Below, piece by piece: positions 1,187 through 56,864 of a DNA stretch of 64,000 nucleotides. The notes below the pieces were generated by a model. It was not told where the DNA came from, made no database searches, and saw only the letters and a list, made by a program, of their open reading frames with translations. Each line of letters begins with the position of its first letter. The first letter of the stretch is position 1. This DNA comes from Dicyema japonicum (taxonomy: Eukaryota > Dicyemida > Rhombozoa > Dicyemidae): NCBI GenBank assembly GCA_011109175.1, contig RDEW01000048.1:333445-397444 (forward strand). Direction: 5' to 3'. The position numbers and the translations under genes were made by a program.

Positions 1187-2671
1187 ATGTCTCAATGTAT
1201 TTGTGAAATTTGTACTTGTGGGTTAATAATATACAATTACTTGTAGTCGCCATGCATGTAAGCATGAACATAGAACTCCAAAGGGAGATATTGGTCATTC
1301 AATGTATACAGAAACATATAAAACCCCCAACTACAAAAGACAACCTGCTGCAAGCCACCACCAACAGTAAACGTATCCTCAGAACCTTTGGAATCAATGA
1401 CTACTCACAAGTATGTATAACTAAAAACCATAGAACTGACTATATAAAACATGCAATGAGTAGTAGACACGTGATTCCTAAGAAAGAGGGTGAATATGAG
1501 ATCCCAAGGCAACCATTCGAAAAGATGACGGGTTACCAACAGGACTATAGACGTATGATATGTGATTAATTGTAGGATTCCGTGGAGAAAAGACAAAGTC
1601 AATGAAACCGTTGAATATTTACAAAAGTGGTGGTGAGTTTAAGGGAACCTCAAATTATAAAAGTAATATGAATATGTCATATTAGATGATTATGTGCAGT
1701 GGAATATAGAAAAGAGGAAACCAATAGAAGATGCTTATTCGTGGAACAACCATCACCAACCATTTGAAAAATATACTACTCATCAATTGGATTATGTCTC
1801 CAAACCCATTTCTATTAGAGATAATTACAAACCATCTGCACATGCCTCCACATCCACTGATCCACTCAGCAGTAATACTGATTACAGGTATTCACTACAC
1901 ATTATTGAGGTCCAACTACACAAAACATCAAATTGCTCCCAAATTTATAAGACAATCTCATGAATATGTCCCCAATCCTACACCATTTGAAGGATTTACT
2001 ACAACTGGATTGGATTTTATTAATAAAAACTCAAAACCTGCACAAAGTTGTAAACCAGACAACAAAGTATATTACTGAACACTATTCAGGCATTCACGTC
2101 ATCAGAACCATTCGCAGGGACAACCACCTTCACTAACGATTACAGAAAGTGGCCTTTGAACATACAAGTAGTAAGGGAGACACACGAATACCAACCTCCC
2201 ACAACTCTTATGAACTTCAATACAGTCTATAATAATGATTACAGGTATATTTACATCACACATTGTAGAGGACTAAATGCCCCTCCTCTTAAGGCTATTA
2301 AAAATGAGACAACTCGCAAAGAGTTACCACCATTTGAAGGACTATCAAACTACACTCAAAACTATCGTAGATGGTCTCTAGTTAAGGAACCGGTTATTTC
2401 TAATAATGACACATCTTTGCCTTCTCCACCATTTGTCGGTGTATCTAACTATCAGGAAAACTACCGACAACACAAAATGAAGCCAATAGATATAAATAAA
2501 CCAAAGACACAAGTCCACACAACGTCCTCTCCATTTGATGGTACTACAATGTACAGATCTGAGTATTTCCCTCGGAAAATAGAGTCATGCAAAGCCTGTG
2601 CTTACATAAACTTAACATCAAATGATGAACGTGGGGGACATCAATATTATAGAGTTGGGGATAATAAATAA
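1187..2671 (+). CDS. SAXO: SAXO-type stabilizer of axonemal microtubules (FAM154/MAP6-related)
   Basis: The N-terminus reads MSQCICEICTCG and, after a 25-nt intron (1222-1246), continues GRHAC. This is the cysteine-rich Mn start typical of SAXO1/2. The rest is a run of degenerate Mn repeats of the form PFEG-x-T/N-x-Y-x-x-D/N-Y, for example QPFEKMTGYQQDYR, PFEGFTTTGLDF and PFEGLSNYTQNYR. SAXO proteins bind microtubules of cilia and centrioles through these repeats, so a role in ciliated cells is inferred. Further introns of 23, 23, 22, 23 and 24 nt sit at 1553-1575, 1663-1685, 1888-1909, 2067-2089 and 2245-2268, and each restores frame. The one unresolved junction is near 1357-1375, where only a 16-nt GT...AG segment reconnects the frame. 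The start was chosen because the diagnostic Cys motif begins at this ATG. Confidence 0.9.
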
Positions 2672-2807
2672 TTATATTTAACGATAACTAACATTTAAGT
2701 ACTTTTACCCCCTAATAATTAACTTATTGATTATATTGGCTTTTAATACTAAAGGTCACTTAACCAGATTTGTAAACTCTATATAAACCGACTGCCAAGG
2801 GACTGCT

Positions 2808-53413: not shown

Positions 53414-56400
53414 ATGAGTGTGCCTTATCGTTCGGCAGAAGAGATTAAAAGCTCATTTATTGAGTTTTTCAAAGAACGTGGTCACTCGTATATTCATTCG
53501 TCGAGTGTGATCCCCCACAATGATAAGACCCTTCTCTTCACCAATGCGGGGATGAATCAAGTTGATTGTGTGATGTTATTGTAGTTTAAAGACATATTTT
53601 TGGGGACTGTTGATCCAAATACAGACATAGGACAACTAAAACGAGCAGTAAACTCACAAAAGTGTATTCGGGCTGGTGGCAAACACAACGATCTCGACGA
53701 TGTGGGTAAGGATTCTTACCATCACACTTTCTTTGAAATGCTCGGCAATTGGTCATTCGGAGATTACTTTAAGGTTAATTGAACCATTTTAATTGTTTAT
53801 ATTATTGATTATATCGTAAATGTTAATTTAATTTTTTATTTTTTATTATTATTATTAATATTTTGTCCAATGAATTTATTTACTAGATGTTTACTATTTC
53901 TCATTTACCTTGTATATGTTAATTTCTATTAATTATTATTTGTTAGAGTGAAATGTCATCATGGGCTATCGATTTCTGGTGGGAGAACTTGGACTACTGA
54001 AGGAGAATATTTATGTTACTTACTTTGGTGGAGACGAAACGATGGGACTTAGTCCTGACTTGGAGACACGTGATATTTGGCTTGGATTGGGGTAGTCTAC
54101 TAATAAGACTCAGATTTTCTGATGAAAAAGTGCTCCCCTTTGGAATGAAGGATAACTTTTGGGAAATGGGGGAGACTGGGCCATGTGGTCTCTGCAGCGA
54201 ACTTCATTATGACAGAATTGGGGAAAGGAATGCCGCTAAAATGGTGAACATGGACGACCCCACTGTCATCGAAATATGGAATTTGGTGTTCATTCAATAC
54301 AACAGAGAAACCGACAACTCCCTCACTCCTCTCCCTAATAAACACGTGGACACTGGACTTGGATTCGAAAGAATCGTATCTATTGTGCAGAATAAGTATT
54401 CAAACTACGACACGGATGTGTTTGTACCCTACTTTGAGGATATTCAACGGGTAATCTCCTTTCTAATTGATGATTTCTAATCATCCACGATCATATACTG
54501 GAATGTTTGGAGAGGCTGATGTTGGCAATGTGGATATGGCATATAGAGTGGTCGCTGACCATATCCGCACACTCTCTGTGGCGGTTGCTGATGGGGAATC
54601 CCTTCGAATGTTGGGAGTGGGTTATATATGGGCTAAATGACAGGCATGTCCTCAGAAGGATTCTCAGACGAGCTCTCCACTTCTTTAACACCATTTTGGG
54701 AGCCAAACAGGGGACATTCATTCAATTGTTGGACACTGTGTTGAGGATAATGGTTATTGGTGGTAATATTGGAGGGTGGATTCTTTCCTGAGTTGGTAAA
54801 TAACAAACAAGTCATCAAAAGTGTTCTAGTTAAGGAGGAAAGTTTATTTTTGAAGACCCTTTCCCATGGAGAAGCTCTTCTTAGAAAGAAGATCGCCCAA
54901 TATGATTCAAATGTGTTGCCTGGGGACGTGGTCTGGCTTTTATACGACACTTTCGGCTTCCCGATTGATCTAACGGCAATAATAACTGAGGAACATGGAA
55001 TGATTATTGACTTTGAGGGATACGAAAAGTGCAGAGAAGAGGCAAAGCTCAGGTCCCAGGCAGTCCGCATTAAGGACTCACAACTGGAAATGGGTGCTGG
55101 GGCTTTAGATCACTTGGTAAAGTGTTTCACTCCAACTGATGACTTGCCAAAGTATTCCTACCATGCCCTCTCTGATGATGACGTGATTGAATATGGTCAT
55201 TGTTATAATCAAATGCAGAGTTTGATGATTTGGAAGCACGTGTGTTGGCCATCTATGATAATCAGACTCGAGAGTTTGTCGACAAGGTGGCATGTGGGTC
55301 GAATTCACTTACCATAATTCTGGATAAAACGTGCTTCTTTGGAGAACAGGGAGGACAACGAGGAGATATGGGATATTTATTGAATCCGTCCACGATGGAG
55401 GTTGTATTCTTAACCACGTGTAGAGAGTATTTTCTGTGGAACAGACTAAAACCAAGGCTGGGTTTGTTCTTCACAACGGTGTGGTGGATAGTGAGTTGAC
55501 TGTGGGTGATATGGTTGTCTGTAGATTGTGGGTATGTGGTCTTTATATTCTAGAGTAATAGATTTGCCATCATGGCTAACCATACAGCTACCCACGTGGT
55601 GAATTATGCAATCAGAAGTTGCATTGGTAACTCACAACAGCAGGGATCATACGTGGACGTGGACAGATTCAGATTTGATTTTAATTATGATGTATAATTG
55701 TGTCTTATTTGATTAGATGGGACCAATGTCATTGGATTTATTAGAAAGTATAGAAAATAAGGCCAATTCTATGGTCAGTGCTTCTCTTCCCTGTCTATGA
55801 CGGAGAGATGAACTTGGTTCTAGCTTACTCTATCAATGGACTTAGGGCTATATTCCAGGAGGTTTAGTGATGTGCTAATGGTAGAGTTATCCAAATCCTG
55901 CCAGAGTTGTTGCCATAGGGATTCCTGTGGATGATTTGACTACAAACAGTGGTGCTGAATATTCCATAGAGTTGTGTGGTGGAACGTTGGTCTTTTATTG
56001 TTTTTTAGTCACGTGGCAAATACACCACATTTCGGCAATTTCTATTGTTTCTGAGGAAGCCGTTGCCAAGGGTATACGTCGTTTCGTCGTCATTACTGGA
56101 GAATCCGCTTTAGAGGTAGGTCGGTTTTGAACAATAGTTAGGCTCGACAATTGGCTTTGGAATTACAAGACCGTTTCCATAAACTAAGTACTAAAATCAG
56201 TGATCTATTTGTTGACTATCAAGTTGATCTGTTTGAGTCTGGGGAGGCTGAACTTTCTATTGAACTGTCAAACTTTTTGTCGGTAAATGATTTGGTTAAA
56301 TATTCTAGCAAGTCAACGATTCCTTGATTTCCTATCACACAAAGGTCCGTTTGAGAGATTTAGTTGTATGTGCTAAGAAGGATCTGTTTGACCAACAGAA

Positions 56401-56864
56401 AGTAATCGACAAGGAGAGGGCTGCAAATGTGATTATTAGTTATATGTAGATTATTTCATTACTTCAAAAGAATGCAACCAATGGACATGGAAGTGACTCT
56501 CCAGTTGTACACGTGCTTGAAAAGTATGTGAGTAGCAAGGTTTATTGAGTGGTGAACTGTAGACACTGCGTAATACAGCAAAGAAACTGTGTTCGAATGA
56601 TTCCATTAATCGTCCAGTAGCTATGTTGAGTGTGGGGTTGACAAATCGGTTGAATGTGTTTTGTCTATTCCTAATGTAGTTTGTGGTGATATCTCTTAGG
56701 ATTTTCTATCACGTGGAGGAGATGCCCTGAAATGGGCTGAAGAGATTTCTAAGAGTGTTGGTGGTAGATTTGGAGGAAAGAATATTCTTGCCTGGCTTAC
56801 AGTCTCCGAGGATGCAGATATTGAAGCTATTACCTTACAACTTGCTCAACATTCATTTTTCTGA
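53414..56864 (+). CDS. AARS1: Alanyl-tRNA synthetase
   Basis: Catalytic core: [99 protein letters not shown]. Then VLRRILRRA. The editing domain has [14 protein letters not shown] (HxxxH) and CGGTH-type zinc ligands. The C-Ala end has [17 protein letters not shown] and [10 protein letters not shown], stop at 56864. It charges tRNA-Ala; the editing domain clears Ser/Gly mischarging. Introns of 22-25 nt are placed at many positions, plus one of 173 nt (53774-53946). Four one-base frame breaks remain, near 53973-53975, 54603-54604, 56028-56037 and 56634-56637; three are single-base losses in short T or G runs, the third is less clear. No presequence, so cytosolic. CACGTG ends two bases before the start codon; eight more lie in the gene. 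Confidence 0.93.
53774..53946 (+). other. 173-nt intron in alanyl-tRNA synthetase
   Basis: GT at 53774 follows FGDYFK and AG at 53945-53946 precedes SEMSSWAID. The flanking residues align one-to-one with the family, so no exon is hidden. It is very AT-rich with a run of TTA triplets, and about seven times the usual intron length in this window. Confidence 0.85.

Follow-up and report, generated by a model that had tools for sequence, protein, structure and literature searches.

We analyzed a 64,000-base stretch of the genome of the dicyemid Dicyema japonicum (assembly GCA_011109175.1, contig RDEW01000048.1, positions 333,445 to 397,444), hereafter the window, in which an earlier note had described an excess of the palindromic hexamer CACGTG, mainly inside host genes. 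The GC content of the window is 37.4%, and that of the fully readable stretches sampled elsewhere in the genome is 33-40%; the accessible text of the genome report gives 67.5 Mb and 36.7% GC for D. japonicum, with repeats making up about half of the genome (PMC6736024). Genes were modeled without transcripts by a purpose-built gene finder that allows for tiny introns and tolerates frameshifts, and a subset of the models was verified with Pfam (8 proteins) and homology searches. Under an intron-length prior that favored 22-30 bp, 59 of the 99 predicted introns measure 22-26 bp; an average of 26.2 nt over 16 Dicyema introns is given in the accessible part of PMC2222250. The host genes of the window are as follows:

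13118-14374, minus strand: EIF3I-like gene (gene model and Pfam)
15186-16838, minus strand: RNase HII-like gene (gene model and Pfam)
19484-22849, plus strand: NAD(P) transhydrogenase, NNT (gene model and homology)
22937-23614, minus strand: RNase H1 (Pfam; frame set by hand)
26004-27424, plus strand: Brix-domain gene (gene model and Pfam)
34774-40801, plus strand: WD40 and coiled-coil gene model (translation read by eye; zero in-frame coding CACGTG)
43122-43743, plus strand: ARF-like gene model without CACGTG (by reading; the similar L012:3626-4307 is Arf by Pfam)
53414-56864, plus strand: alanyl-tRNA synthetase, AARS (gene model and homology)

CACGTG occurs exactly 42 times in the window, where the earlier note had counted about 42 by eye, and all 34 coordinates it gave are among the sites. 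These are listed below without strand, each being CACGTG unless a longer form is named (LINE, long interspersed element):

1468-1473: outside gene models
6126-6131: within a LINE-like-looking element (by reading)
6226-6231: outside gene models
7573-7578: outside gene models
9108-9113: outside gene models
12185-12190: outside gene models
13555-13560: EIF3I-like gene, exon/intron edge; counted as intron by midpoint
13724-13729: EIF3I-like exon, phase 2
13816-13821: EIF3I-like exon, phase 1
15715-15720: RNase HII-like gene, intron
19772-19777: NNT exon, phase 1
19945-19950: NNT exon, phase 0
20141-20146: NNT exon, phase 0; H where 120 aligned homologues have K
20470-20475: NNT exon, phase 1
20749-20754: NNT exon, phase 1
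21556-21561: CCACGTGG, entirely within a predicted 23-bp NNT intron (21550-21572)
21764-21769: NNT exon, phase 2
23027-23032: RNase H1 exon
23136-23141: RNase H1 exon
23451-23456: RNase H1 exon
23562-23567: RNase H1 exon
26723-26728: Brix-domain gene exon, phase 1
32670-32675: outside gene models
38841-38846: WD40/coiled-coil gene, exon edge
40334-40339: WD40/coiled-coil gene, intron
45367-45372: repeat; context resembles 49321
45602-45607: outside gene models
49321-49326: repeat; context resembles 45367
50171-50176: outside gene models
50327-50332: outside gene models
51952-51957: repeat; context resembles L014 at 6080
53407-53412: 7 bases before the predicted AARS start codon (53414)
54067-54072: AARS exon, phase 1
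54343-54348: AARS exon, phase 0; HV of HVDTG
55237-55242: AARS exon, phase 1
55415-55420: predicted AARS intron; model uncertain
55593-55598: AARS exon, phase 0
56010-56015: predicted AARS exon (uncertain model), phase 2; aligned homologues have gaps here
56510-56515: AARS exon, phase 0
56710-56715: AARS exon, phase 1
57726-57731: repeat, of a family common to L010 at 6740
60239-60244: outside gene models

Overall, 26 of the 42 sites lie in genes (21 in exons and 5 in introns), fewer than the roughly 30 claimed; the other 16 are outside (11 in other DNA and 5 in repeats). Since CCACGTGG occupies part of only 23 bp, the predicted NNT intron at 21550-21572 has little room for other intron signals.

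Base composition predicts 7.7 copies in the window, matching the earlier expectation of about 7-8, and a fourth-order Markov model (Markov-4) predicts 26.7; counted on both strands, the figures are 84 observed against 53.3 under Markov-4. The Markov model thus accounts for some but not all of the 42 copies, and does so because it is fed the 5-mers of CACGTG itself. By both z-scores (composition and Markov-4), CACGTG ranks first among the 4096 hexamers of the window, and its one-base neighbors are depleted there relative to the Markov model. CACGTC, CACGTA and CACGTT occur 8, 4 and 6 times, and AACGTG, TACGTG and GACGTG 17, 8 and 10 times; the variants are therefore rarer than CACGTG, as had been noted, but to a lesser degree than the eye counts, which were too low, had suggested.

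The excess extends well beyond the window. Genome-wide, we counted 20,572 CACGTG in 64.67 Mb, compared with 4,154 copies of the reversed word GTGCAC and 7,043 of CACGTA on the plus strand. The contrast with CACGTA is stronger than its face value, because an AT-rich composition predicts fewer CACGTG than CACGTA. The window, at 0.66 sites per kb, is about twice as dense as the genome mean of 0.32 per kb. Similarly, ten 10-kb stretches not selected for CACGTG (L005-L014, with masked runs in L005 and L008) contained 43 sites, and CACGTG was again their top hexamer by the Markov-4 measure. The next most over-represented hexamers in these stretches by that measure were GACGTC and GATCAC/GTGATC. A literature search, as far as the accessible portions of its sources extend, returned no report of CACGTG being over-represented in Dicyema or in coding sequence.

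We next asked whether codon usage could account for the exonic copies. For this control and for the class densities below, we pooled the window with L005-L014 and set aside L001-L004, which had been chosen for close CACGTG pairs. Twelve gene models (18,951 in-frame bases) contained 23 in-frame CACGTG, whereas synonymous-codon shuffling averaged 4.0 and reached 10 at most over 1000 shuffles. This rejects codon and amino-acid preference as the explanation, in line with the earlier argument, and the copies are indeed spread over all three codon phases (7, 10 and 6). A signal or process that acts on the DNA itself, whatever the codon phase, is supported.

The number of in-frame copies varied considerably among genes, from 0 to 7: seven of the 12 models carried between 1 and 7, led by AARS (7), NNT (6) and RNase H1 (4). 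At the other end, the WD40/coiled-coil gene has none in its 4,989-base coding part and a single site at an exon edge (38841). A match to U5 spliceosomal RNA (RF00020, 48.3 bits, 35207-35302, plus strand) lies within the span of this gene model, and given this overlap its first exons may be wrong. The otherwise conserved AARS gene shows an apparent one-base frameshift at about 53980-54005, read by eye, which is possibly an assembly error.

To relate the motif to protein conservation, we aligned NNT with the best 120 of 3,714 homologues, to which the protein is 55-59% identical and whose named top matches are mostly molluscs, and AARS with the best 120 of 7,999. Of 34 residues encoded by motif codons, 11 agreed with the consensus of the homologues, against 1034 of 1926 elsewhere (Fisher p = 0.015). 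Split by column conservation, the motif matched in 8 of 13 columns at or above 0.8 (830 of 1190 elsewhere), with three gap columns counted in, in 1 of 11 columns at 0.5-0.8 (147 of 443 elsewhere), and in 2 of 10 columns below 0.5 (57 of 293 elsewhere).

Examining the classes of sequence revealed where the sites are densest. Sites were assigned by their midpoint and densities computed per kb of readable sequence; the repeat class comprised self-matches within the sample and six models judged mobile by eye and is incomplete, and the class of other DNA includes unannotated genes and unrecognized repeats. Exons held 1.27 sites per kb (24 in 19.0 kb) and introns 1.37 (6 in 4.4 kb, some at uncertain model edges), and these densities did not differ (p = 0.82), unlike what would be expected of an exonic splicing signal. 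Other DNA held 0.42 per kb (41 sites) and recognized repeats 0.40 (14 in 35.1 kb), the latter significantly below genes (p = 1.7e-4). Relative to base composition, the excess was 8.0-fold in exons, 22.9-fold in introns, 4.3-fold in other DNA and 2.6-fold in recognized repeats. The ten stretches alone contributed 3 exonic sites in 3.8 kb (p = 0.03) and 1 intronic site in 1.1 kb; because this sample is small, the gene-class figures rest mainly on the window. CACGTG over-representation is therefore real, genome-wide and blind to reading frame, and the genes of our sample, with their introns, are where the word is densest.

The bases flanking the hexamer are also biased. In the window and the ten stretches, C preceded CACGTG at 65 of 170 strand-sites, where its background frequency is 18.4% (p = 1.9e-9), and G was avoided in this place (22 of 170). 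Among the 85 sites, 15 were CCACGTGG, 7 were TCACGTGA, and two each had A or G in this place. Genome-wide, CCACGTGG made up 2,618 of 20,572 sites (12.7%), whereas the same extension of the reversed control made up 129 of 4,154 (3.1%). As reported in the accessible text of PMC4242493, CCACGTGG heads the ranking of 8-mers for Myc-Max, and GCACGTGC is four- to five-fold better than TCACGTGA.

To characterize spacing, we counted CACGTG pairs genome-wide in five bins of 31 offsets each, the handling of overlapping partner choices being unspecified. We obtained 210 pairs at 6-36 bp, 369 at 46-76 bp, 571 at 100-130 bp, 528 at 170-200 bp and 397 at 250-280 bp, where uniform scatter predicts 203 per bin; the reversed control gave 17, 7, 9, 10 and 10 in the same bins, where 8.3 were predicted. 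CACGTG thus clusters at 50-280 bp, and pairs within 36 bp drop to the level of uniform scatter. Tandem repeats, such as a minisatellite on C39, inflate the shorter bins, so this drop is if anything understated. With regard to possible nucleosome phasing, the pair counts form a broad peak at 100-200 bp, with no sharp period across the five bins.

We then searched the genome for proteins that could read such a site. A profile search for the helix-loop-helix (HLH) domain (PF00010) gave 25 matches, of which 20, all exon fragments, were examined as sequences (L017-L036). The invariant H, E, R and R that mark a CACGTG-type basic region were present in 13 of the 20, and 11 satisfied a stricter pattern; one of the 13 resembles ARNT. 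In comparisons with solved structures, which covered five of the 13, MAX was the nearest for three (L027, L029 and L021). Centromere-binding protein 1 appeared as a weak match in the comparison of L026. About three further HLH exons look like group A by eye (L017-L019), and loss of a neuronal HLH domain in D. japonicum is described in the accessible text of PMC6736024. Judged from these sequences, the set of MAX-like basic HLH (bHLH) proteins appears to be expanded in this genome. Together with the preference for CCACGTGG, the many CACGTG-type basic regions make a bHLH-type site the best of the suggestions that the earlier note had put forward.

We accordingly favor, at roughly even odds, a reading in which selection keeps the CACGTG copies as sites bound by a MAX-like family that has expanded in the dicyemid genome. 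CACGTG, at its best as CCACGTGG, would be a highly iterated signal of double-stranded DNA that selection preserves within genes and near them. It would be bound by dimers from a large bHLH family of the MAX-like type (group B), at sites typically 100-200 bp apart and far less often within about 40 bp. Once bound, these dimers could label domains the size of a gene or make them accessible to transcription, or they could determine the local nucleosome layout, regardless of codon phase. From sequence, we infer the binding by MAX-like proteins, the genuine expansion of that family, the selective upkeep of the sites and the effect of binding. Selection is favored because the neighbors are depleted, the palindrome is extended and close pairs drop, because recognized repeats are less dense in CACGTG than genes, and because motif codons match homologues less often, as where NNT has H against K in 120 homologues. 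In a broader version, a more doubtful proposal that we offer tentatively, a MAX-type E-box would mark gene bodies generally and irrespective of reading frame, at about nucleosome-scale spacing. It would be read by an expanded MAX-like family, would separate host genes from mobile elements and would constrain proteins where it is exonic.

Several observations weigh against selected MAX-like binding sites. Among the structure comparisons, L024 was slightly closer to USF2 than to MAX, and L026 was nearest to USF and only weakly matched MAX. The expansion is a judgment made on exon fragments, without a phylogenetic tree, and the copies could include pseudogenes. The G flank is avoided here, yet Myc-Max binds GCACGTGC well, and in human cells Myc-Max occupancy tracks RNA polymerase II better than it tracks CACGTG (both in the accessible text of PMC4242493). 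Close pairs (210) are not below uniform scatter (203); their scarcity shows only against the other bins. Recognized repeats are themselves enriched (14 sites against 5.4 expected, p = 1.5e-3). The gene models were built without transcripts, five of the 12 have no CACGTG, and the exon counts come mainly from three window genes. Finally, the conservation test is weak, because 3 of its 34 residues, from a doubtful exon, stand in gap columns of the alignment and because CACGTG may simply arise at loosely constrained positions.

The rival that survives best, though we consider it unlikely, is a bias of mutation or repair that makes CACGTG a sink, with neighbors converting to it faster than it decays, and more so in transcribed DNA. 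Such a sink would fit the depletion of one-base neighbors, CACGTA among them genome-wide, and the enrichment in every codon phase and every sequence class, recognized repeats among them. A simple point-mutation bias, however, should give neither the drop in pairs from 100-130 bp to 6-36 bp nor the extension to CCACGTGG, and copies resembling short interspersed elements (SINEs), with similar repeats, show little excess (3 sites against 1.4 expected in 7.1 kb, two of them in one family; a small sample). One family of SINE-like elements, dispersed and about 330 bp long, has several copies, at 42258-42588 in the window, L012:1375-1709, L013:8108-8435 and elsewhere, which in this small sample are about 73-89% identical in pairs over their longer matches. 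The NNT/RNase H1 region, in which gains and losses might have been compared between haplotypes, matched only itself and one weak 104-base stretch of the genome.

Somewhat less probable still are ordinary regulatory E-boxes, with enhancers and promoters packed in and beside the genes of a compact genome, read by one or a few bHLH factors and serving nothing architectural. The site at 53407, just ahead of the predicted AARS start codon, the clustering at 100-200 bp and the strong differences between genes are what such elements would produce; on the other hand, about 20,500 sites, and in-frame copies in seven of the 12 models, exceed in our judgment a usual regulon.

It is very improbable that CACGUG acts in the transcript to aid exon definition beside tiny introns, as the earlier note had proposed: exon density is high and most predicted introns are tiny, but introns are equally dense, one site lies wholly within a predicted 23-bp intron, and DNA outside gene models and recognized repeats shows a 4.3-fold excess; the densities in introns and in non-gene DNA lead us to reject an exon-only signal. 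Inflation by transposon or tandem-repeat copies has as little to recommend it and is mostly rejected by the class densities, which are lowest in recognized repeats and highest in gene models, and by the near-uniqueness of the NNT/RNase H1 region, although one family (57726 and L010), the similar contexts at 45367/49321 and 51952/L014, and the C39 minisatellite do carry the word.

Comparison with known systems helps to place the pattern. E-boxes in general act as regulatory elements of particular genes. Those of group B bHLH proteins (MYC/MAX/MXD and USF) share the palindromic hexamer and, for Myc-Max, the favored extension CCACGTGG (accessible text of PMC4242493), and the genome encodes many basic regions with the matching H, E and R contacts. 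Unlike them, CACGTG here recurs about every 0.8 kb within the predicted gene models, and does so in introns as well as in every codon phase. The CDEI element of budding-yeast centromeres has the same hexamer and is bound by the bHLH protein Cbf1, which has a role in chromatin, but it occurs once per centromere, against thousands of copies in genes here. The DNA uptake sequences of Neisseria and Pasteurellaceae are likewise short words repeated in genes in all frames; they differ in being maintained by uptake-biased transformation, a process that we do not know from animals.

A further parallel is HIP1, the highly iterated palindrome of cyanobacteria, GCGATCGC, which the accessible text of PMC4390886 ties to GATC/CGATCG methyltransferases. 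As there, a palindrome is hugely over-represented genome-wide, with enrichment that reaches past its core, and the excess spans coding and non-coding DNA independently of frame. The differences are that the word is not GCGATCGC, that the genome is an animal's, and that a PF00145 search of it gave 0 matches, although introns can break a match and other methylase families were not searched. Given this PF00145 result, the DNMT family may be absent from the genome, and a methylation-linked palindrome of the HIP1 kind is disfavored. The pattern thus resembles the iterated palindromes of cyanobacteria, and the boldest reading would make it an animal counterpart of the bacterial ones.

If selection keeps CACGTG this dense in gene bodies, thousands of codons would be under competing demands from DNA binding and from the encoded protein, a conflict open to direct measurement. 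Were this true, animals would gain a counterpart to the bacterial iterated palindromes, whose role remains argued, and the MAX-like family would be a concrete candidate partner of CACGTG.

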